NCBI GenBank assembly: GCA_946409435.1
Contig: CAMJWJ010000012.1
Coordinates: forward strand, 1-36,831
Reading direction: 5' to 3'
Source: an uncultured Prevotella sp.
GTDB taxonomy: Bacteria; Bacteroidota; Bacteroidia; Bacteroidales; Bacteroidaceae
DNA: 36,831 nucleotides
Notes under the pieces: model-generated
What the model was told of the DNA's origin: nothing
The model's input: only the letters and a program-made list of their open reading frames with translations
Database searches by the model: none
Position numbers and translations under genes: made by a program
Shown here: positions 4,683 to 16,554 of the stretch, piece after piece
Position numbering within the stretch: the first letter of the stretch is position 1
Layout of the letters: every line of letters begins with the position of its first letter

Positions 4683-4714
4683 TTTGCAGATTATCATGAA
4701 AGTATGTATTTTTG
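4683..4714 (+). promoter_or_regulatory. Promoter of the trp operon (TTTG-N20-TATTTTTG)
   Basis: -33 TTTG at 4683-4686, -7 TATTTTTG at 4707-4714, 20-nt spacer; fits Bacteroidetes consensus TTTG-N19-21-TAnnTTTG. Confidence 0.75.
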
Positions 4715-4744
4715 CAGCGTAAATAAACAAAACTAGGCAAGACA

Positions 4745-4792
4745 ATGAAAGCAATGTTCAATATCTGGTGGTGGCGTAACTCGAGATTCTAA
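4745..4792 (+). CDS. trp operon leader peptide MKAMFNIWWWRNSRF*
   Basis: 15-codon ORF with TGG TGG TGG at 4766-4774, between the promoter and a terminator hairpin upstream of trpB. Confidence 0.85.
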   Translation: MKAMFNIWWWRNSRF

Positions 4793-4834
4793 CAGTCGCG
4801 AGAACGAAGCCATTATATATTGTCATTCAGATAG

Positions 4835-4867
4835 AGAGGCTCGTCGGCAACGCGACGGCCTCTTTTT
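4835..4867 (+). terminator. Attenuator terminator of the trp leader
   Basis: AGAGGC(T)CGTCG-gcaacg-CGACGGCCTCT stem with one bulged T, then TTTTT at 4863-4867. Confidence 0.85.
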
Positions 4868-4955
4868 CTGTTTACGGCGCTGCCCCTCGGCAGGAAGCCA
4901 CGGCGAAAGCCAAGAAAACAACAATAAGACACAACAACAGAAACTAATAAAATAT

Positions 4956-6164
4956 ATGAAAGAGAACTATTTTGTAGACGAGAAAGGCTACTACGGCGAA
5001 TTTGGCGGAGCTTACGTACCGGAGATTCTTTACGCTACCGTAAGGAACCTGCAGGAGGCTTACAGGCCGATAGTAGAGAGTGAGGAGTTCAAGCGCGAAT
5101 ACCACGCCCTGCTGAAAGACTACGTCGGACGTCCGTCGCCATTGTACTACGCCCGCCGGATGAGCGAGAAGTACGGCTGCCAGTTGTATCTCAAGCGCGA
5201 GGACTTGAACCACACCGGTGCACACAAAATCAACAACACCATCGGCCAGATACTGCTGGCCAAGAAGATGGGCAAGAGCCGCATCATTGCCGAGACAGGC
5301 GCCGGACAACATGGTGTGGCGACGGCCACGGTCTGTGCACTGATGGACATGAAGTGCGAGGTGTTTATGGGAGCCACCGACGTGGAGCGCCAGCACACCA
5401 ACGTCGAGCGCATGAAGATGCTCGGTGCCGAGGTACACCCTGTGCGTACTGGCAACATGACGCTGAGCGACGCCTGCTCCGAGGCCATCCGCGACTGGTG
5501 CTGCCATCCTGCCGACACCTTCTATATAGTCGGCTCCACCATGGGACCTCACCCCTACCCTGATCTGGTGGCCCGCATGCAAAGCGTCATCAGCGAGGAA
5601 ATCAAGTGGCAGCTGCAGGAACAGGTAGGTCGTGACTATCCTGACTATCTCGTCGCCTGCATCGGTGGTGGCAGCAATGCCGCTGGCACCATCTACCACT
5701 ACGTCAACGACGAACGCGTAAAAATCGTGCTGGCCGAGGCTGGTGGCCATGGCTGGCAGACGGACTACACGGCAGCAACCATCCACAAGGGCAGCACGGG
5801 CATCCTTCACGGTGCCAAGATGCTGGTCATGCAGAACGATGACGGCCAGATTGAGGAGGCTTTCACCATCAGTGCCGGCCTCGACTACCCCGGTGTAGGC
5901 CCCATGCACTGCAACATGGCCAAGAAAGGTCGCACACAGGTGCTGAGCATCAACGACGACGAAGCCATCTACGGCGGTTACGAGCTGACGCGCATGGAGG
6001 GCATCATTCCTGCCATTGAGAGTGCCCATGCTATTGCCGCCCTCAAGCATCTGACGTTCCATGCCGACGACGTGGTGGTACTCACCGTCAGTGGCCGTGG
6101 CGACAAGGATGTCGAGACGTATCTCAAGAACAAGCAAATGGCCAAGGAATACGGAAATTTTTAA
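4956..6164 (+). CDS. trpB: Tryptophan synthase beta chain
   Basis: KREDLNHTGAHKINNTIGQ PLP-lysine motif, AETGAGQHGVATA, GGGSNAAG. Confidence 0.98.
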   Translation: MKENYFVDEKGYYGEFGGAYVPEILYATVRNLQEAYRPIVESEEFKREYHALLKDYVGRPSPLYYARRMSEKYGCQLYLKREDLNHTGAHKINNTIGQILLAKKMGKSRIIAETGAGQHGVATATVCALMDMKCEVFMGATDVERQHTNVERMKMLGAEVHPVRTGNMTLSDACSEAIRDWCCHPADTFYIVGSTMGPHPYPDLVARMQSVISEEIKWQLQEQVGRDYPDYLVACIGGGSNAAGTIYHYVNDERVKIVLAEAGGHGWQTDYTAATIHKGSTGILHGAKMLVMQNDDGQIEEAFTISAGLDYPGVGPMHCNMAKKGRTQVLSINDDEAIYGGYELTRMEGIIPAIESAHAIAALKHLTFHADDVVVLTVSGRGDKDVETYLKNKQMAKEYGNF

Positions 6165-6198: not shown

Positions 6199-7614
6199 AT
6201 GAACACCTTTCACTTCACAGCTACGAGCCGTACGATACTGGCCGACCTGTACACCCCCGTCGGCGTCTACATGCGACTGAGAGACCTCTATCCTCAGAGC
6301 GCACTGATGGAGAGTTCCGACTATCACGACTCCAACAACTCACGCTCGTTTATCGGACTACACCCGATGGCCAGTGTGGCTATCGGCCACGGTGTGGCAA
6401 CCGTCAGCTATCCCGACGGCAGCACGCAGCAGCGCGAGGTCAACAGGAACTATACGTCAGACAAAGCCATCCACGAACTCATAGACCACATCCAGGTCAC
6501 TGGCGACCACTCCGACATCTGCGGACTGTTCGGCTACACCTCGTTCAATGCCGTCCGCTATTTCGAGGACATCAACGTCAAGGACGAGACGCAGGCAAAG
6601 AACGATGCCCCCGACCTCCTCTATATATTATATAAGGTAGTCATCGTGTTCGACCACTTCAACAACACCCTCACGGTGGTATCGCTTGACGGTGAGGAGG
6701 AACTTGACACGATATTCCGTGCGATGAACAAAGCCAGCGTAAAGGCATATGACTTCCACCCCGTCGGCGAGACGACTTCCACGCTGACCGACGAGGAGCA
6801 CAAGGCCAACATCCGCAAAGGCATCAGACACTGTCTGCGCGGCGACGTGTTCCAGATAGTACTCAGCCGTCGTTTCGTCCAGCGTTACGAGGGCGACGAC
6901 TTCAAGCTCTACCGTGCGCTACGCAGCATCAATCCCAGCCCTTACCTCTTCTATTTCGACTTTGGCGGTTTCCGCATCTTCGGCTCATCGCCCGAGACAC
7001 ATTGTCGCATCCAGGCCATCCGGCAGGCAGACCGTCTGACCTACAAAGCATACATCGACCCCATTGCCGGCACGACCCGCCGCACGGGCGATGCCGAGGC
7101 CGACCGCAGGGGAGCCGAATACCTGCGCAACGACCCCAAGGAGAATGCCGAGCACGTCATGCTGGTAGACCTGGCCCGCAACGACCTAAGCCGCAACTGC
7201 CATGGTGTGAAGGTCGACTTCTACAAGGACCTGCAGTACTACTCCCACGTCATCCACCTCGTCTCCCGCGTCAGTGGCGAGCTTGACGAGGGTGCCGACC
7301 CCATCAAGGCGTTCATCGACACCTTCCCTGCCGGTACGCTGAGTGGTGCTCCGAAGGTTCGTGCCATGCAGCTCATCTCCGAGTACGAGCCTCACAACCG
7401 TGGTGCCTACGGCGGCTGTATCGGCTACATCGGCCTTGACGGCTCGCTGAATCAGGCCATCACCATCCGCACCTTCGTCAGCCGCAACGGCGAGCTATGG
7501 TTTCAGGCCGGCGGCGGCATCGTGGCGAAGAGCGACGAGGAGTATGAGTTGCAGGAGGTGAACAACAAGCTCGGTGCCCTCCGGCGTGCCATCCTCATGG
7601 CAGAAGATATGTAA
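6199..7614 (+). CDS. trpE: Anthranilate synthase component I
   Basis: Chorismate-binding motifs GDVFQIVLSRRF, SPYLFYFDFGGFRIFGSSPE, PIAGTTRRTG, PAGTLSGAPKVRAM. Confidence 0.97.
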   Translation: MNTFHFTATSRTILADLYTPVGVYMRLRDLYPQSALMESSDYHDSNNSRSFIGLHPMASVAIGHGVATVSYPDGSTQQREVNRNYTSDKAIHELIDHIQVTGDHSDICGLFGYTSFNAVRYFEDINVKDETQAKNDAPDLLYILYKVVIVFDHFNNTLTVVSLDGEEELDTIFRAMNKASVKAYDFHPVGETTSTLTDEEHKANIRKGIRHCLRGDVFQIVLSRRFVQRYEGDDFKLYRALRSINPSPYLFYFDFGGFRIFGSSPETHCRIQAIRQADRLTYKAYIDPIAGTTRRTGDAEADRRGAEYLRNDPKENAEHVMLVDLARNDLSRNCHGVKVDFYKDLQYYSHVIHLVSRVSGELDEGADPIKAFIDTFPAGTLSGAPKVRAMQLISEYEPHNRGAYGGCIGYIGLDGSLNQAITIRTFVSRNGELWFQAGGGIVAKSDEEYELQEVNNKLGALRRAILMAEDM

Positions 7615-7686: not shown

Positions 7687-8250
7687 ATGAATATTGCAAT
7701 TATTGACAACTACGACTCGTTCACCTATAACCTGAGTCATCTGGTAAAGGAACTGGGTGCCGGCGTCACCGTATTCCGAAACGACCAGTTCCAACTGCCA
7801 CAGTTAGAGGCGTTCAGCAAGATCATCCTCTCGCCTGGTCCCGGCATACCTTCCGAGGCAGGCCTGCTGCTCGACGTCATCCGCACCTATGCCGGCCGCA
7901 AGCCCATCTTAGGCGTCTGCCTGGGTCATCAGGCCATCGGCGAAGCCTTCGGCGGCAAGCTTGAGAACCTGACGGACGTGTTCCACGGTGTGGCCACTCC
8001 CTGCCATATCGTCAGCGACGACGCGCTGTTCAGCGGCCTCGACCGTCACATCACGATAGGGCGCTACCACTCTTGGGTGGTGTCGAAAGACGGTTTCCCC
8101 GACTGTCTTGAAGTGACCGCCGAGAGCGACGAAGGCCAGGTGATGGCTCTCCGCCACAAGACGCTCAACGTCCGCGGCATCCAGTTCCATCCCGAAAGCG
8201 TGCTGACCCCCGACGGCAAGAAGATGCTGCAGAACTGGCTGTTTCTTTAG
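7687..8250 (+). CDS. trpG: Anthranilate synthase component II (glutamine amidotransferase)
   Basis: DNYDSFTYNL, SPGPGIP, GVCLGHQAIGEAFGG, GIQFHPESVLT. Confidence 0.97.
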   Translation: MNIAIIDNYDSFTYNLSHLVKELGAGVTVFRNDQFQLPQLEAFSKIILSPGPGIPSEAGLLLDVIRTYAGRKPILGVCLGHQAIGEAFGGKLENLTDVFHGVATPCHIVSDDALFSGLDRHITIGRYHSWVVSKDGFPDCLEVTAESDEGQVMALRHKTLNVRGIQFHPESVLTPDGKKMLQNWLFL

Positions 8251-8259
8251 GTTCCCTCA

Positions 8260-8363
8260 GTTAGGGGGCGAAAGGGGTCTGAACAAGCGCAGGCCCGCCA
8301 ACAAAAATAGTAATAACTTTAGAAGGAGTCTGATAGACGCTTGTTCAGACCCCATCCCCTAAC
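8260..8363. repeat. Long inverted-repeat element in the trpG-trpD gap
   Basis: 16-bp perfect arms GGGGTCTGAACAAGCG (8274-8289) and CGCTTGTTCAGACCCC (8338-8353), extended by GTTAGGGG/CCCCTAAC outside. Confidence 0.9.
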
Positions 8364-8379: not shown

Positions 8380-9393
8380 ATGGGAAAACAGACAATGAAG
8401 GACATCCTGAACAGGATGCTAAACCACGAGGAACTGTCTCGTGAAGAAATGAAGAACATTCTGGTAGGCATCACCCAGAGTGAGTATCCCACGGAGCAGA
8501 TTACCGCCCTGCTGACGGCGCTGCAGATGCGCGGCGTCACCGTCGACGAGCTGTTAGGATTCCGCGACGGCATCTTGGAGACCGGCGTGCCGGCCATTCT
8601 CAATGCCGACCGCTATATCGACGTGGTCGGCACGGGTGGCGACCGCAAGAACACGTTCAACATCTCTACCACGTCGTGCTTCGTCATAGCCGGTGCCGGC
8701 TACAAGGTGGCCAAGCACGGCAACTACGCAGCGACATCGGTCAGCGGTGCCTCTAACGTCATCCAGCACCACGGCATCCGCTTCACCGACGACATCGACC
8801 GGCTGAACCGCTCGCTCGACGAGTCAGGCATCGTCTACCTCCACGCCCAGCTGTTTGCCCGTGCCATGAAGTTCGTAGGTCCCATCAGGAAGGCCCTGCA
8901 GTTCCCCACCATCTTCAACCTGCTGGGACCGCTGGTCAATCCCTCGCAGCCCCAGTGCCAACTGCTCGGTGTGGCCAACCTCGACCAGATGCGGCTGTAC
9001 AGCCAGGTGTACCAGAAGATAGGCATCGACTACGGCATTGTCAACAGCATCGACGGCTACGACGAGATCTCGCTGACCGGCGACTTCAAGGTGACCACGC
9101 GCAGCTACGAGCGCATCTTCAAGCCCAGCGACCTTGGCTTTGAGTGCGCCAAGCCCGAGGAACTGGTGGGCGGTGCCACCGAGGAGGAGGCTGCCGCCAT
9201 CTTCGACGCCGTGCTGGAAAACCGTGCCCTGCCTGCCCAGAAGAATATCGTGCTGGCCAACGCTGCCTTTGGCATCCAGGTGCTTGAAAGGGGCGAGAAG
9301 ACCATTGAGGAATGCATCGACATTGCCCGCGAGAGCATCGACAGCGGCAGTGCCCTGAGGACTTTCAAGAAGTTTGTCGAGCTGAACAGCTAA
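8380..9393 (+). CDS. trpD: Anthranilate phosphoribosyltransferase
   Basis: DVVGTGGDRKNTFNISTT, KHGNYAATSVSGASN motifs. Confidence 0.97.
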   Translation: MGKQTMKDILNRMLNHEELSREEMKNILVGITQSEYPTEQITALLTALQMRGVTVDELLGFRDGILETGVPAILNADRYIDVVGTGGDRKNTFNISTTSCFVIAGAGYKVAKHGNYAATSVSGASNVIQHHGIRFTDDIDRLNRSLDESGIVYLHAQLFARAMKFVGPIRKALQFPTIFNLLGPLVNPSQPQCQLLGVANLDQMRLYSQVYQKIGIDYGIVNSIDGYDEISLTGDFKVTTRSYERIFKPSDLGFECAKPEELVGGATEEEAAAIFDAVLENRALPAQKNIVLANAAFGIQVLERGEKTIEECIDIARESIDSGSALRTFKKFVELNS

Positions 9394-9420: not shown

Positions 9421-10242
9421 ATGGCAGATATATTAGAAGAAATCATAGCCTACAAGCGCATCGAGGTGGAACAGATGAAGAGCGAACTCAGCGAACGGGA
9501 AATCCATCGCCGCGTGGCACCCCTGCTGAACTTCAGCGTGGCATCGATGGCTACAGCGCTGACCACCTCCGACACGGGCATCATTGCCGAGTTCAAGCGG
9601 CGGTCGCCCTCGAAGGGCTGGATCAAGGAGGACGGCCGTGCCGACGAAATCCCGCTGAGTTACCAGCAGCATGGGGCAGCGGCACTGAGCATCCTGACCG
9701 ACAGCCACTACTTTGGCGGCAGCGATGCCTTCATCGTGACCGCCCGCCAGACGGGTGTCAAGATTCCCGTGCTCTACAAGAACTTCATCATCGACGAGTA
9801 CCAGCTGTTTCAGGCCCGTCTGTGCGGAGCCTCTGCCGTGCTGCTGATAGCTGCCAACCTGACGATGCAGGAGTGCGGCAGCCTACTGCACACAGCCCAC
9901 GAGCTGGGCATGGAGGTGCTGCTGGAGATGCACGACGAGCTGGAGCTGGAGTACGCCGAACTGCAGCCCGACCTCTGCGGCATCAATAACCGCCATCTGG
10001 GCACCTTCGTCACCGACGTCCAGACCTCGTTCCGGCTGGCCGAGCGGCTACGCGACGTTTGTGGTTGTAATACAACCACATACAGGACTGGGCCTGTTCT
10101 GGTCAGCGAGAGCGGCATCAGCAATCCGCAGACCGTCCGCGAACTACGCCAAGCGGGCTTCCGCGGTTTCCTCATCGGCGAGACTTTCATGAGAACCAGC
10201 GCCCCCGGCAAGGCGCTCAACGACTTTATCAGAGAGCTATGA
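9421..10242 (+). CDS. trpC: Indole-3-glycerol phosphate synthase
   Basis: AEFKRRSPSKGWI, SILTDSHYFGGS, GINNRHLGTF, VSESGISNP motifs; contains an apparent in-frame insertion. Confidence 0.96.
   Translation: MADILEEIIAYKRIEVEQMKSELSEREIHRRVAPLLNFSVASMATALTTSDTGIIAEFKRRSPSKGWIKEDGRADEIPLSYQQHGAAALSILTDSHYFGGSDAFIVTARQTGVKIPVLYKNFIIDEYQLFQARLCGASAVLLIAANLTMQECGSLLHTAHELGMEVLLEMHDELELEYAELQPDLCGINNRHLGTFVTDVQTSFRLAERLRDVCGCNTTTYRTGPVLVSESGISNPQTVRELRQAGFRGFLIGETFMRTSAPGKALNDFIREL
10060..10080. repeat. 21-nt perfect inverted repeat inside trpC
   Basis: TGTGGTTGTA-A-TACAACCACA: 10-bp arms, 1-nt centre, coding CGCNTTT just before VLVSESGIS. Confidence 0.9.
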
Positions 10243-10862
10243 TCATAAAAGTATGCGGCATGCGCGACAGCGAGAACATCCGGCAGGTTGAGGAGTTGCA
10301 CCCCGACTGGCTCGGCTTCATCTTCTGGCCGAAGAGTAGTCGCTACGTCAGCGAATATCCAAAGTACATGCCCATCTACGCAAAGCGTGTAGGCGTGTTC
10401 GTAGACGAAGACATCGAGACGGTCAGACAGACTGCTGACGACTATGCCCTCGACATCATTCAACTGCATGGCCATGAAAGCCCTGAGTATGCTGCTCAAC
10501 TGCGCGAGTGGAAGATTGTCAAGGCCATCAGCGTCAGCAGCCGCGAGGACATCTTGACCTATAAAAGCTACGAAGGACTTGTGGACTACTTCCTCTTCGA
10601 CACCAAGTGCCAGACAGCAGGCGGCAGCGGCAGCAAGTTCGACTGGAGCGTGCTCGACGGCTACGACGGCCGTACGCCCTTTCTGCTCTCTGGAGGCATA
10701 GGCCCCGACGATGCTGCTCGCCTCCGTGACTTCCACCATCCGCGGTGTGTCGGCATCGACCTCAACTCGCGCTTCGAGACGGCTCCCGGACTGAAGGACA
10801 CCGGCCGCCTGCGCTGCTTCCTCAACGATATTAAGCAACAGAATCATAACAGCAAACAGTAA
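10239..10862 (+). CDS. trpF: Phosphoribosylanthranilate isomerase
   Basis: IIKVCGMRDSENI, DIIQLHGHES, FLLSGGIGPDDA; overlaps the trpC stop (ATGA). Confidence 0.96.
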   Translation: MIIKVCGMRDSENIRQVEELHPDWLGFIFWPKSSRYVSEYPKYMPIYAKRVGVFVDEDIETVRQTADDYALDIIQLHGHESPEYAAQLREWKIVKAISVSSREDILTYKSYEGLVDYFLFDTKCQTAGGSGSKFDWSVLDGYDGRTPFLLSGGIGPDDAARLRDFHHPRCVGIDLNSRFETAPGLKDTGRLRCFLNDIKQQNHNSKQ

Positions 10863-10869
10863 AAACATC

Positions 10870-11655
10870 ATGGCAAACAAGATCAACAAGCTCTTCGCCG
10901 AAAGGCCACAAGACAAGAAATTCCTCTCGCTCTACTTCTGTGCCGGCAACCCGACGCTCGACGGTACGGGCGACGTCATACTCACCATGCAACGCCGAGG
11001 CATCGACTTCGTCGAGGTAGGCATCCCCTTCAGCGACCCGCTGGCCGACGGTCCCGTCATCCAGACGGCAGCCACCCGTGCCTTGAAGAACGGCATGAGC
11101 GTCAGCCGCCTGTTCCAACAGCTGAAGGCCATCAAGGCCGACGTCCGCATACCGCTCATCCTCATGGGCTACCTGAACCCCATCCTCCACTACGGCATCG
11201 AGCAGTTCTGCCAGTCGTGTGCCGAGGCTGGCGTCAGCGGCATGATCATCCCCGACCTGCCCTTCGACGACTACCTCTCACAGGTGAAGCCCGTCGCCGA
11301 CCGCTACGACCTGCGCGTCATCATGCTCATCACCCCCGAGACCAGCGACGAGCGCATCCGCTTCATCGACGACCACACCGACGGCTTCATCTACATGGTA
11401 TCGTCGGCTGCCATCACCGGCGCCCAGCACAGTTTCGACGACGCCCGTCAGGCCTATTTCCGTCGCATCGACCAGATGCATCTGCGCAATCCCCGCATGA
11501 TTGGCTTCGGCATCAGTAACAAGCAGACGCTGGAGGCTGCCAACGCCAACGCCGCCGGAGCCATCATCGGCTCGAAGTTTGTCACGCTGCTCGACGAGGC
11601 CTGTGGCAATGCCGACCTTGCCCTCGACAGCCTGTTCGACGCGCTGCAGCAGTAA
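10870..11655 (+). CDS. trpA: Tryptophan synthase alpha chain
   Basis: GIDFVEVGIPFSDPLADGPVIQ, LMGYLNPILHYG, GFGISNKQT. Confidence 0.97.
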   Translation: MANKINKLFAERPQDKKFLSLYFCAGNPTLDGTGDVILTMQRRGIDFVEVGIPFSDPLADGPVIQTAATRALKNGMSVSRLFQQLKAIKADVRIPLILMGYLNPILHYGIEQFCQSCAEAGVSGMIIPDLPFDDYLSQVKPVADRYDLRVIMLITPETSDERIRFIDDHTDGFIYMVSSAAITGAQHSFDDARQAYFRRIDQMHLRNPRMIGFGISNKQTLEAANANAAGAIIGSKFVTLLDEACGNADLALDSLFDALQQ

Positions 11656-11668
11656 AGATACACAGCGG

Positions 11669-11704
11669 AGTGCACAGCAGGCTCGGCCTTACTGTGCACT
11701 TTTT
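11669..11704 (+). terminator. Rho-independent terminator of the trp operon
   Basis: AGTGCACAG ... CTGTGCACT followed by TTTT, 14 nt after the trpA stop. Confidence 0.85.
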
Positions 11705-11897: not shown

Positions 11898-13073
11898 ATG
11901 AAACCCATATCAGAGACACAGGCCACCGACGCGCTGAAGATCGTCTACGTCACACCGGCACTCTACATGGCCGGCGGTGTGGAGCGGGTGCTGACGCTGA
12001 AAGCCAGCTACATGGCCGAGCATTATGGCTACGACATCACTATCGTGCTGACCGAAGGCAAGGACAAGCCGACGTTCTATCCCTTGTCTGACAAGGTGAA
12101 GGTAGTCAACCTGGACTTGAACTTCGAGGAACTCTGGCAGGCATCCTTCCTGAAGAAGACAGTCCTCTACCTGCGGAAACAGCACCAGTTCAAGCGACTA
12201 CTGCGAAAGCTGCTGATGAGCCTGCGGCCAGACATCACCGTCTCGCTGCTGCGACGCGAGATCAACTTCATCAACAGCATCCCCGACGGCAGCAGGAAAA
12301 TCGGCGAGCTGCACATCAACCGCAGCAACTACCGCAACTACGACGCCGAGGGTGGCAGCCGCATGAAAAGACTGTTTGCACGGTGGTGGTCGGCCAGCTT
12401 GGTGAGTCATCTGAAGCAGCTGGACAGGCTGGTAGTGCTGACAGAACGCGACCGCGCATCGTGGGTGGAGCTTGACAACGTCATGGTCATCCCCGACCCG
12501 CTGTCCTTCGTGCCCCTGCAGCAGAGCACCCTCAGCAACCGACGGGTAGTGGCTGTGGCTCGCTACTCCCACGAGAAAGGCATCGACCTGCTGCTGCAGG
12601 CATGGGCGCTGGTGGAGCAACAGAACGACGACTGGCAGCTGGACATCTACGGCGAGGGCGACCGACAGCCCTACGAGCTGCTGGCAAGCAGGTTAGGCCT
12701 AAAACGCTGTACGCTACACGGACGGACCAACGACGTAGAGCGTGCCTATTGCGAGAGCAGCCTCTTCGTACTCAGTTCCCGCTTCGAGGGCTTTGGCATA
12801 GTCATCGTCGAGGCTATGGCCTGCGGACTGCCCGTCGTTGCCTTCGACTGTCCGTGGGGACCGCGCAGCATCATCAGCAACGGCGAGGACGGACTGCTGG
12901 CCGGGCAGGGTGACGTCGCGGACCTGTCGCGCCTGCTGTTGTCGCTGATGGATGACCCTGCACGCCTGACAGCGATGGCTGCTGCTGCCGTCAGGAACGT
13001 CCAGCGATTCCGCATTGAGCGCATTGCCGAACAGTGGAAGCTGCTGTTTGATACCGTCAAGAAAAGTAAGTAA
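11898..13073 (+). CDS. Glycosyltransferase family 4
   Basis: GGVERVLTLKA N-terminus; VAVARYSHEKGIDLLLQAW; SRFEGFGIVIVEAMACGLPVVAFDC EX7E motif. Confidence 0.93.
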   Translation: MKPISETQATDALKIVYVTPALYMAGGVERVLTLKASYMAEHYGYDITIVLTEGKDKPTFYPLSDKVKVVNLDLNFEELWQASFLKKTVLYLRKQHQFKRLLRKLLMSLRPDITVSLLRREINFINSIPDGSRKIGELHINRSNYRNYDAEGGSRMKRLFARWWSASLVSHLKQLDRLVVLTERDRASWVELDNVMVIPDPLSFVPLQQSTLSNRRVVAVARYSHEKGIDLLLQAWALVEQQNDDWQLDIYGEGDRQPYELLASRLGLKRCTLHGRTNDVERAYCESSLFVLSSRFEGFGIVIVEAMACGLPVVAFDCPWGPRSIISNGEDGLLAGQGDVADLSRLLLSLMDDPARLTAMAAAAVRNVQRFRIERIAEQWKLLFDTVKKSK

Positions 13074-13081
13074 AAAAGCGC

Positions 13082-14251
13082 ATGAAGATACTATTCCTCG
13101 TCTATCACGGATTCTCGGAGCATAGCGGTATCTCGAAGAAGATACACTACCAGGTGAAGGGCCTGCGCCAGAACGGCCACGACGTGAGGCTGTGCCACTA
13201 TGGATTTGACGACCGCGGCCATCGCTGCCGCTTCGTCGACGGACAGGTCATCGAGGACTATGGCTCCGGTCCTCTGGCTGCTGCCCGGCAACGCACCAGC
13301 TACGGCTGCATCGGCGACTACTGCCGCCGCGAAGGCATCGAGATGGTCTACGCCCGCTGCTTCCAGAATGCCAGCCCCTGGCTGATACACCTGTTTCGCA
13401 GACTGCGCCACTTGGGCATCCGGGCCGTGACGGAGATACCCACCTACCCCTACGACAACGAGTTCTCCAGCAGCAGCGACTGGAGCATGCGCCTCGACCT
13501 GTGGCTGGACAAGCGGTGCCGCCACGCGCTGTACCGACAGATGGATGCCGTGGTGACCTTCTCCGACGAGGAGCGCATCTTTGGGCAACGCACCATCCGC
13601 ATCAGCAACGGCGTCGACTTCGACAGCATCCCGCTGCACCGGTTTGGAGGTGAGGGGTTAGAGGTGAGTGGTGAGCAGCCGCTCCACCTCATCGGCGTCG
13701 CCGAGGTACACTTCTGGCACGGCTTCGACCGGCTGATAGCAGGCATGGGCGAATACTACAGGAGCGGCGGGACGCGCGACATCGTCTTCCACATCGTCGG
13801 CGGCGTACACCCCAACTATATGCAGGACATCGCGCAGGCTCCCGGTTTCCAGACGCTCATCGACCGCTATGGACTGGCAGGCAAGGTCGTCTTCCACGGC
13901 ACCCTGTTCGGCAGCCAGCTGGACGACGTGTTCAACCAAAGCCAGTTTGCCATCGGTTCGCTGGCGCGCCACCGCAGCGGCATCACCGTCATCAAGACGC
14001 TGAAGAACCGCGAATATGCCACGCGTGGCATGCCCTTCATCTACAGCGAGCAGGACAGCGACTTCGACGGCCAGCCCTACGTGCTGAAGGCTCCTGCCGA
14101 CGAGTCGCCTATCGACATCCAGCGCATCATCGACTTCCTGGCCCACTTCAGCATGAAGCCCGAGGAAATCCGTAAGACGGTGGAGCACCTGGCGTGGAAG
14201 ATACAGATGCAGCGCGTCGTAACCGCTGTCGCCGACATCTCCAAACTGTGA
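13082..14251 (+). CDS. Glycosyltransferase (GT4-like, GT-B fold)
   Basis: MKILFLVYHGFSEHSGISKKIHYQVKGLRQNGHDV N-terminus; position in GT cluster. Confidence 0.7.
   Translation: MKILFLVYHGFSEHSGISKKIHYQVKGLRQNGHDVRLCHYGFDDRGHRCRFVDGQVIEDYGSGPLAAARQRTSYGCIGDYCRREGIEMVYARCFQNASPWLIHLFRRLRHLGIRAVTEIPTYPYDNEFSSSSDWSMRLDLWLDKRCRHALYRQMDAVVTFSDEERIFGQRTIRISNGVDFDSIPLHRFGGEGLEVSGEQPLHLIGVAEVHFWHGFDRLIAGMGEYYRSGGTRDIVFHIVGGVHPNYMQDIAQAPGFQTLIDRYGLAGKVVFHGTLFGSQLDDVFNQSQFAIGSLARHRSGITVIKTLKNREYATRGMPFIYSEQDSDFDGQPYVLKAPADESPIDIQRIIDFLAHFSMKPEEIRKTVEHLAWKIQMQRVVTAVADISKL
13647..13675. repeat. Degenerate heptamer repeat (GAGGTGA-like) inside a glycosyltransferase gene
   Basis: gaggtga ggggtta gaggtga gtggtga g, coding the low-complexity segment GGEGLEVSGE. 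Confidence 0.7.
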
Positions 14252-14295
14252 ACTATGAACTATGAACTATGAACTGTGAACTATGAACTATGAAC
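14247..14295. repeat. Heptanucleotide tandem repeat (TGTGAAC/TATGAAC), 7 units
   Basis: Seven units counted; first unit includes the preceding gene's TGA stop; same repeat as 1463-1525. Confidence 0.95.
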
Positions 14296-14299
14296 TGAT

Positions 14300-15451
14300 A
14301 TGCATATATTATATTTATATCCGGAAATAACCATCAAGGGTGGTGCCGACAAGGTAATCGCAGAAAAGGCAAACTACTTTGCCACCCACGGCTACGAGGT
14401 GACGCTGGTCACCGAGTCGCAGATGGGACGCGAGCCGTCGTTCCCACTCAGCGACAAGGTGAGGCATGTAGACATGGGGCTGGACTTCTACAAGCAATAC
14501 ACGCAAAACATCATCATGCGTGCCGTCACCTACACCACGCTGATGCGCAGCTACAAGCGGCAGCTCAGCCAGCTATTGAGTGAGCTGAAGCCCGACATCG
14601 TCATCACGGCACTTGGAAGGAGCATCGACATACTGCCTGCCATGAAGGACGGCAGCGTGAAACTCGGAGAGGCACACAGCGTGAGGGCACACCTGCGCAG
14701 TTTCTACCTGATAGAACAAAAGGGGTTCTTCTACCGTATGGCCGTCAAATGGATGAGGCGAAGCACGTATCGGAAGATCGCAAAGCTCGACGCATTGGTA
14801 CTGCTCACACCAGAGGATGCCGACAGCTGGCCAGAAGTGTCCTGTCGCTTCGTCATACCCAATGCCGCACCGCCACTGCCTCAGTCGGTGAGCACCTTAC
14901 GCCAGAAACGGGCTATCATAGCTGCCCGCTACAACGACGCCAAGGGGTATGACTACCTGATAGAAGCCTGGAGCATGGTACACCGGCAACACCCCGACTG
15001 GAAACTCGACGTATACGGCTCGGGAGAGTTGCACGATGATGTAGTGCGGCTCATCGAACAGCACAAGCTGACCGAGAGCATCATCCTGCACGAACCCGTC
15101 GACAACATCATGGAGAAGTATCTGGAAAGCTCAATCTACGTGATGAGTTCACGCTTCGAAGCCTTTTCCCTTGTACTCCTTGAGTCGATGGCATGCGGTG
15201 TGCCATGCGTGGCCTTCGACTGTCCCAACGGTCCGCGAAACATCATCAGGAACGGCGAGGACGGACTGCTCGTGGACTATCTGAATCCAAAGGCTCTGGC
15301 TGACGGCATCTGCCGACTGATAGACGATGAGCCGCTGCGCCACCGCCTTGGCGAGCATGCACGACGTAATGTGCAGCGATTCTCACGCGAAGCCATCATG
15401 CAGCAGTGGGAAGAAGTGTTCGACAAACTGACCAACGAGCGACATACATGA
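14300..15451 (+). CDS. Glycosyltransferase family 4
   Basis: GGADKVIAEKANYFATHGYEVTLVTE; IIAARYNDAKGYDYLIEAW; SRFEAFSLVLLESMACGVPCVAFDCPNGPRNII. Confidence 0.93.
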   Translation: MHILYLYPEITIKGGADKVIAEKANYFATHGYEVTLVTESQMGREPSFPLSDKVRHVDMGLDFYKQYTQNIIMRAVTYTTLMRSYKRQLSQLLSELKPDIVITALGRSIDILPAMKDGSVKLGEAHSVRAHLRSFYLIEQKGFFYRMAVKWMRRSTYRKIAKLDALVLLTPEDADSWPEVSCRFVIPNAAPPLPQSVSTLRQKRAIIAARYNDAKGYDYLIEAWSMVHRQHPDWKLDVYGSGELHDDVVRLIEQHKLTESIILHEPVDNIMEKYLESSIYVMSSRFEAFSLVLLESMACGVPCVAFDCPNGPRNIIRNGEDGLLVDYLNPKALADGICRLIDDEPLRHRLGEHARRNVQRFSREAIMQQWEEVFDKLTNERHT

Positions 15452-16554
15452 AGATCGTCTACATATATCCCACACTGGCCACATGGGGTGGCGTCGAGCG
15501 TATTCTGGTGGAGAAGATGAACCTGCTGGCAGACTACGACGGCTACGAGATACACGCCGTGACCTACAACCAGGGCGACCACCCGCTGTCGTTCCAGCTT
15601 GACAGCCGTGTACGCCACACCGACCTCCAGGTGCGTACCCATGCCATATACCGATACCGCGGACTGCGCCGGCTATGGGAGGAATGGAAGCGCTCACGGC
15701 TTTTGAGCAGCAGGCTGCGCGAAAAACTGGACGAGATAGCCCCCGACGTCATCGTGGCCACGACCAACGGCGAGCTGGCGCTGCTATGCAGGCTGAAAGG
15801 CAGCACACCACTCGTCGTGGAGTCGCACGGCGGTTACCAGCACCTGATAGACTATCCGCGCCTGTCGTGGCGCCACCGTCACGACATCCGCCGACGCTAC
15901 CGCCTGCTACATCAGGCCGATGCCATCGTCACCCTGACCGAGCAGGATGCCAGCAAGTGGCGCACGGACTATCCGCAGGTCCACGTCATACCCAACGTGG
16001 TACACCTGAACCCCACTGACAGACTGAGCACGCAGCAACAGAAACGTATCATTTTCGTTGGACGACTGGCGGAGCAGAAAGGCATACCGGAACTCATGGC
16101 CGTATGGCGAATGACGCACCGCCGCCATCCCGACTGGCAGCTCATGATGTTTGGCGAAGGAGACCATGACTATGTGCGCCGGCTGGCCGACGGGCTACAG
16201 GTGTCACCACCCGTCAAGAACATCTTCGACCAGTACTGTAACTGCTCTGTGCTCGTGCTGACCTCACGCTGGGAGCCTTTCGGACTGGTGATTCCCGAGG
16301 CGATGTCGTGCGGACTGCCCGTCGTGTCCTTTGAAGGCGACGGACCCAGCAGCATCATCACCGACGGGGTAGACGGATTCCTCGTGGCCAACCGCGACAC
16401 GGGCATACTGGCCGACCGCCTATGCCAGCTGATTGAGGACGAGACGCTGCGACGCCGCATGGGCGAGGCTGCCGTGCAGTCGGCCCAGCGCTATACTGCT
16501 GCCAACATCATGCCCATGTGGAAAGAACTTTTTGAAACTATCTGCCATTCATAA
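15448..16554 (+). CDS. Glycosyltransferase family 4
   Basis: Start at 15448 (MKIVYIYPTLATWGGVERILVEKMN), overlapping the previous stop; IIFVGRLAEQKGIPELM; EPFGLVIPEAMSCGLPVVSF. Confidence 0.92.
   Translation: MKIVYIYPTLATWGGVERILVEKMNLLADYDGYEIHAVTYNQGDHPLSFQLDSRVRHTDLQVRTHAIYRYRGLRRLWEEWKRSRLLSSRLREKLDEIAPDVIVATTNGELALLCRLKGSTPLVVESHGGYQHLIDYPRLSWRHRHDIRRRYRLLHQADAIVTLTEQDASKWRTDYPQVHVIPNVVHLNPTDRLSTQQQKRIIFVGRLAEQKGIPELMAVWRMTHRRHPDWQLMMFGEGDHDYVRRLADGLQVSPPVKNIFDQYCNCSVLVLTSRWEPFGLVIPEAMSCGLPVVSFEGDGPSSIITDGVDGFLVANRDTGILADRLCQLIEDETLRRRMGEAAVQSAQRYTAANIMPMWKELFETICHS

Follow-up and report, generated by a model that had tools for sequence, protein, structure and literature searches.

The trp leader of Escherichia coli (trpL) has a four-segment logic, in which tandem UGG codons lie within strand 1, the stop codon lies near segment 2 and the terminator carries a U-tract. 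Trp-codon leader peptides preceding the trp genes are also known in the Actinobacteria (PMC1262725), which belong to another phylum than the organism studied here and are likened to it by description alone. Naville and Gautheret, writing in 2010, knew of no leader-peptide system outside the Proteobacteria and Actinobacteria. The closest described element is Bacteroid-trp (RF01692), presented as a probable cis-regulatory RNA of the Bacteroidetes, and not as a switch (Weinberg et al. 2010, PMC2864571). The Bacteroid-trp of Flavobacterium psychrophilum was discussed as a trp attenuator in 2019 and compared there with the E. coli leader (PMC6414381). The descriptions of Bacteroid-trp in the papers searched are computational ones only, and we found no experimental trp leader from the Bacteroidetes in the literature on attenuation and leader peptides; there may be an earlier prediction (Lopatovskaya et al. 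2010). The first-pass annotation was unsure how far such leaders had been described in this phylum, and these two reports of 2010 and 2019 settle the matter.

The window analysed here is a stretch of 36,831 nucleotides from an uncultured Prevotella sp. Its segment 4683-4955 holds a promoter, a leader ORF, a terminator and a competing antiterminator, all 5′ of trpBEGDCFA. The leader is very probably the site of ribosome-mediated transcription attenuation of this operon, homologous to the Bacteroid-trp leaders. As read from the sequence, it has the following features.

4683-4714, plus strand: Bacteroidota-type promoter (−33/−7 type), with −33 TTTG at 4683-4686, N20, and −7 TATTTTTG at 4707-4714
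4745-4792, plus strand: leader ORF (trpL) of 15 codons, MKAMFNIWWWRNSRF, with ATG at 4745 and stop TAA at 4790-4792
4766-4774, plus strand: three tandem Trp codons (TGG TGG TGG), the predicted stall site, conserved in relatives
4761-4820, plus strand: 1:2 hairpin (anti-antiterminator), z −3.2, with covariation of its leader-tail part
4795-4811, plus strand: antiterminator segment 2 (GUCGCGAGAACGAAGCC), from fold and covariation
4828-4870, plus strand: intrinsic terminator, core 4833-4840 with 4858-4865 and 4842-4846 with 4853-4857, U-run to 4867
4838-4856, plus strand: antiterminator partner, running from the terminator 5′ arm through the loop into the first part of the 3′ arm, from fold and covariation

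The element is a divergent homologue of Bacteroid-trp that has the same working parts and falls below the threshold at which Rfam would list it. At the gathering threshold Rfam finds nothing in the window, and the novelty that this suggested was overturned by a search on E-value, which returned RF01692. That model gives the window copy 34.4 bits (E 0.013-0.041) against a gathering cut-off of 49 bits, and for this reason the copy is not listed. The same model scores 50-78 bits on Bacteroides-like and Flavobacteriales-like copies from the Bacteroidales and Flavobacteriales, and its cut-off is exceeded in 21 of 121 sampled genomes of the window's own family, the Bacteroidaceae. A covariance model trained on Bacteroidales and Flavobacteriales copies of that kind, with no Prevotella among them (R2), gives the window copy 52 bits (E 4.5e-8) as the sole significant match in the window. 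Like the window element, RF01692 lies upstream of trp genes in Bacteroidetes and has a Trp-codon leader and a homologous 1:2 hairpin; its consensus, in which UGGuGGUG and AAagUCgUaAG occur, can be aligned over its full length to 4725-4845. Unlike our description, the Rfam model stops within the 5′ arm of the terminator, and so lacks the antiterminator and the rest of the terminator. A rebuilt model that included the terminator would recover the missed Bacteroidaceae copies.

The E. coli attenuator (RF00513) shares with the window the four-segment logic, the tandem UGG codons within strand 1, a stop codon close to segment 2 and the U-tract terminator, whereas the operon order differs and the antiterminator of the window runs through the terminator loop into the 3′ arm. 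The RF00513 model has no match here at E up to 10. The E. coli leader peptide, of 14 residues, resembles that of the window. A meaning for the shared letters (MKA.F) was considered and rejected; the likeness is probably a coincidence, because most relatives do not begin in this way.

The promoter is of the Bacteroidota −33/−7 type, and transcription is expected to start near 4720. The pattern TTTG-N19-21-TAnnTTTG recurs at 117 of 157 related loci, where the expectation is 0.05, and no further promoter of this type occurs from 4600 to the end of trpA. The first-pass annotation had called this a consensus promoter. The promoter stands, but it is not a sigma-70 consensus: a sigma-70 scan has no match at 4683-4714. 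The annotation's seven-gene operon headed by trpB is borne out by family models, in both gene identities and order.

4956-6164, plus strand: trpB, the first gene of the operon (TIGR00263)
6199-7614, plus strand: trpE (best match TIGR00564, 406 bits, under the curated cut-off of 517.7)
7687-8250, plus strand: trpG (TIGR00566)
8380-9393, plus strand: trpD (TIGR01245)
9421-10242, plus strand: trpC (NF001377)
10239-10862, plus strand: trpF (best match NF002298, 152 bits, under the curated cut-off of 215)
10870-11655, plus strand: trpA (TIGR00262)

The genes are co-directional with intergenic gaps of at most 129 nt, and the leader would be expected to control all seven. Two further hairpins were noted. 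A perfect 16-bp inverted repeat at 8274-8289 and 8338-8353 (GGGGTCTGAACAAGCG and CGCTTGTTCAGACCCC) fills the gap between trpG and trpD with no U-run behind it, and is perhaps an mRNA-stabilizing or processing hairpin. At 11670-11704, 3′ of trpA, a stem read by eye (GTGCACAG and CTGTGCAC, with a loop of 14 nt) is followed by TTTTT and is likely to be the operon terminator. Downstream of the operon, 11898-16554 holds a series of genes that look glycosyltransferase-like from their ORFs.

The ORF of 15 codons with TGG TGG TGG is found exactly where it was first described, and its context is conserved. Searches with trpB yielded about 175 upstream regions from the Bacteroidales, in nearly all of which a short ORF encoding WW, WWW or WRW occupies the same position before trpB; about 160 relatives retain both a WW(W) leader and a terminator. 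The leader takes a WWWRNSRF-like form in rumen Prevotella, the nearest relatives of the window, and an NTYWWRxLQLxKS-like form in Bacteroides and other genera. All 129 aligned leaders have two to four Trp codons. In 83 of the 129, 20 nt separate the final Trp codon from segment 2a, and in 109 the stop codon lies at −6 to +14 nt from the start of that segment. There is a minority of trpB loci with no recognizable leader, including the Prevotella-like L014, L015, L017, L106, L108 and L111, and the leader is missing at some loci because trpB does not head the operon there. In L111, whose trp genes are divided, the leader stands in front of trpD on a different contig (L254).

Folding of the entire leader gives z −5.3, and none of 200 shuffles folds equally well. 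The terminator hairpin, first placed at 4835-4867 with a bulged U and a U-run, is present with a core of 13 bp at 4833-4865, U4841 bulged and the U-run following; for the region 4828-4875 the folding energy is −26.6 kcal/mol (z −6.4). An automatic scan finds a strong terminator hairpin in 158 of the Bacteroidales trpB upstream regions that carry the ORF. A covariance model recovers two leaders that the ORF scan had missed (L028 and L136), and has a match in L060 as well, whose upstream piece is truncated. The 1:2 hairpin is formed by pairing 4761-4764 with 4817-4820, 4766-4772 with 4809-4815, 4775-4777 with 4804-4806, 4780-4783 with 4799-4802 and 4785-4788 with 4794-4797, so that the Trp codons fall inside its 5′ strand. 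In the alignment of relatives, 90.7% of cells are paired in the terminator and in the leader-tail portion of the 1:2 hairpin, against at most 50% when the pairing is slid. These helices contain 115 double-change cells against 33 on shuffling, a count that overstates significance because the alignments, the larger one also examined among them, include related sequences; more weight attaches to the slid controls and to the repeat, given below, on a clade-independent alignment.

The antiterminator is more extensive than was first noted. The alternative pairing of 4802-4811 with 4838-4845 is real, yet it is not the whole antiterminator. It lies inside a longer helix, in which the fold pairs 4795-4800 with 4851-4856, enclosing 4805-4807 with 4844-4846 and 4808-4811 with 4838-4841, and the shorter version has been replaced accordingly. 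Across the alignment 92.5% of cells are paired between segment 2a (GUCGU[A/G]AG) and its partner in the terminator, the loop with the 3′ arm (CU[U/C]ACGAC), against at most 49% when slid, with 27 double-change cells against 7.3 on shuffling (0 of 500 shuffles). When Prevotella is left out and the Flavobacteriales are added, 91.4% remain paired and there are 16 double changes against 4.9. Segment 2 pairs with its own terminator at −17.5 kcal/mol, against −14.9 kcal/mol with the terminators of other species (z −10.7), and a subgroup with GGCUCGUCGCGAC terminators makes the same pairing in a shifted register. We incline, by a modest degree, to a general model of the Bacteroid-trp antiterminator whose architecture the Rfam model does not contain: segment 2 mimics the 5′ arm of the terminator and pairs with the loop and with the 3′ arm where it begins, and this pairing encloses a second one to the 5′ arm. 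In the same model some Bacteroidales families also use the module in tandem before trpE, and it is attached separately to detached trpD, trpG and trpB2 units.

Alignment of the relatives thus shows that the Trp codons, the reading frame, the 1:2 hairpin, the terminator and the antiterminator are conserved, with compensatory change. The first-pass annotation held that the case would fail if Trp codons and hairpins were not conserved in relatives; it does not fail on this ground, since all of them are. The classical ribosome-stalling architecture that the annotation proposed is supported in its leader ORF, terminator and exclusive antiterminator, and the switch may be envisaged as follows. When Trp-tRNA is ample, the ribosome would pass UGG UGG UGG and reach the stop codon at 4790-4792; there it would cover segment 2 (4795-4811), allowing the 3:4 terminator (4828-4870) to form and transcription to end before trpB. 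When Trp-tRNA is scarce, the ribosome would be expected to stall on the Trp codons and block strand 1 (about 4761-4788). Segment 2, so freed, could pair with 4838-4856 while the terminator is still incomplete, and RNA polymerase would enter the operon. If the leader were untranslated, the 1:2 hairpin would sequester segment 2 and termination would be the default. The conserved spacings are those required for this scheme, as they would place a stalled ribosome over strand 1 with segment 2 free, and a ribosome at the stop codon over segment 2. By sequence and covariation the antiterminator is mutually exclusive with the terminator, and it would be freed when a ribosome covers strand 1. In the window the terminator, at −26.6 kcal/mol, exceeds the antiterminator (about −19) in stability, so the switching must be kinetic, as it is in other attenuators.

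Could the same locus be explained otherwise? The short ORF might be incidental and the hairpin a constitutive terminator or mRNA stabilizer, with any regulation left to a DNA-binding repressor. The string TGGTGGTGG occurs once in the window and at least once in 30 of 100 shuffles, so that the run is weak evidence by itself and its chance occurrence is not improbable. Against this, a frame with two to four Trp codons is conserved, three mutually exclusive helices covary, and the position of a terminator immediately before the first gene of an operon is sensible only if it is regulated; we regard this explanation as very unlikely. We give even less credence to control of the terminator by a T-box, binding tRNA, or by a Trp-binding riboswitch, with the ORF not acting as the sensor. 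Switching between terminator and antiterminator is common to those systems, but the features conserved here are the Trp codons and the distance between them and segment 2. Moreover, the leader has no T-box or riboswitch match in Rfam 15 at E up to 1, and the T-box model has none at E up to 10; a weak match to PreQ1 (E 3.1) covers the 5′ end of the leader alone.

A different suggestion is that the products of the leader, either its attenuated RNA or its peptide, act in trans as well as in cis. Trans action is reported for the leader peptide peTrpL of Sinorhizobium meliloti (PMC7298713). Termination at about 4867 would free an RNA of ~150 nt, and the peptide is conserved beyond the Trp run (WWWR.LQL.KS), though base pairing of the same nucleotides explains this. 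We consider a role in trans highly improbable at this locus. Attenuation in cis by a translating ribosome is the reading that we adopt.

How widely is the element distributed? A covariance model built from 47 sequences (R1) finds a single copy in the genome to which the window belongs (78% complete). Its matches throughout the Bacteroidales (trpB-first or trpE-first) and the Flavobacteriales (trpE-first) lie where the trp operon begins, the names of the orders being inferred from gene order, trpB identity and kinship labels. Outside the class of the window, the Bacteroidia, there are marginal matches only. In four Bacteroidales families, two R1-matched Trp leaders stand in series about 140-160 nt apart upstream of trpE (L276, G256:C131; L277, G422:C20; L278, G437:C1; L279, G411:C46), and by their sequence each such pair is a putative tandem double attenuator. 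Extra copies precede detached trpD (L254, L289, L290 and L294), trpG (L287) and a TrpB-like gene, trpB2 (L291), and the module thus follows each split trp transcription unit. Weak R1 matches away from trp genes (L280-L284 and L295, E about 1e-3 to 1e-5) were rejected as terminator look-alikes, with no Trp leader before a pathway gene.

The evidence supports well a real element that is conserved across the Bacteroidia and is for the most part ordinary. Attenuation as a principle has been known for half a century, and this family has been in the catalogue since 2010. The additions made here are modest: the anatomy of the antiterminator, a wider taxonomic map, the tandem double attenuators and the detached copies at trpD, trpG and trpB2. 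At the level of sequence, the analysis confirms a complete Trp attenuator in a rumen Prevotella, where the Rfam cut-off misses one. It provides a testable model of the antiterminator and a much wider map covering the Bacteroidales and Flavobacteriales, and aids the annotation of trp regulation in the Bacteroidota of the gut and rumen.
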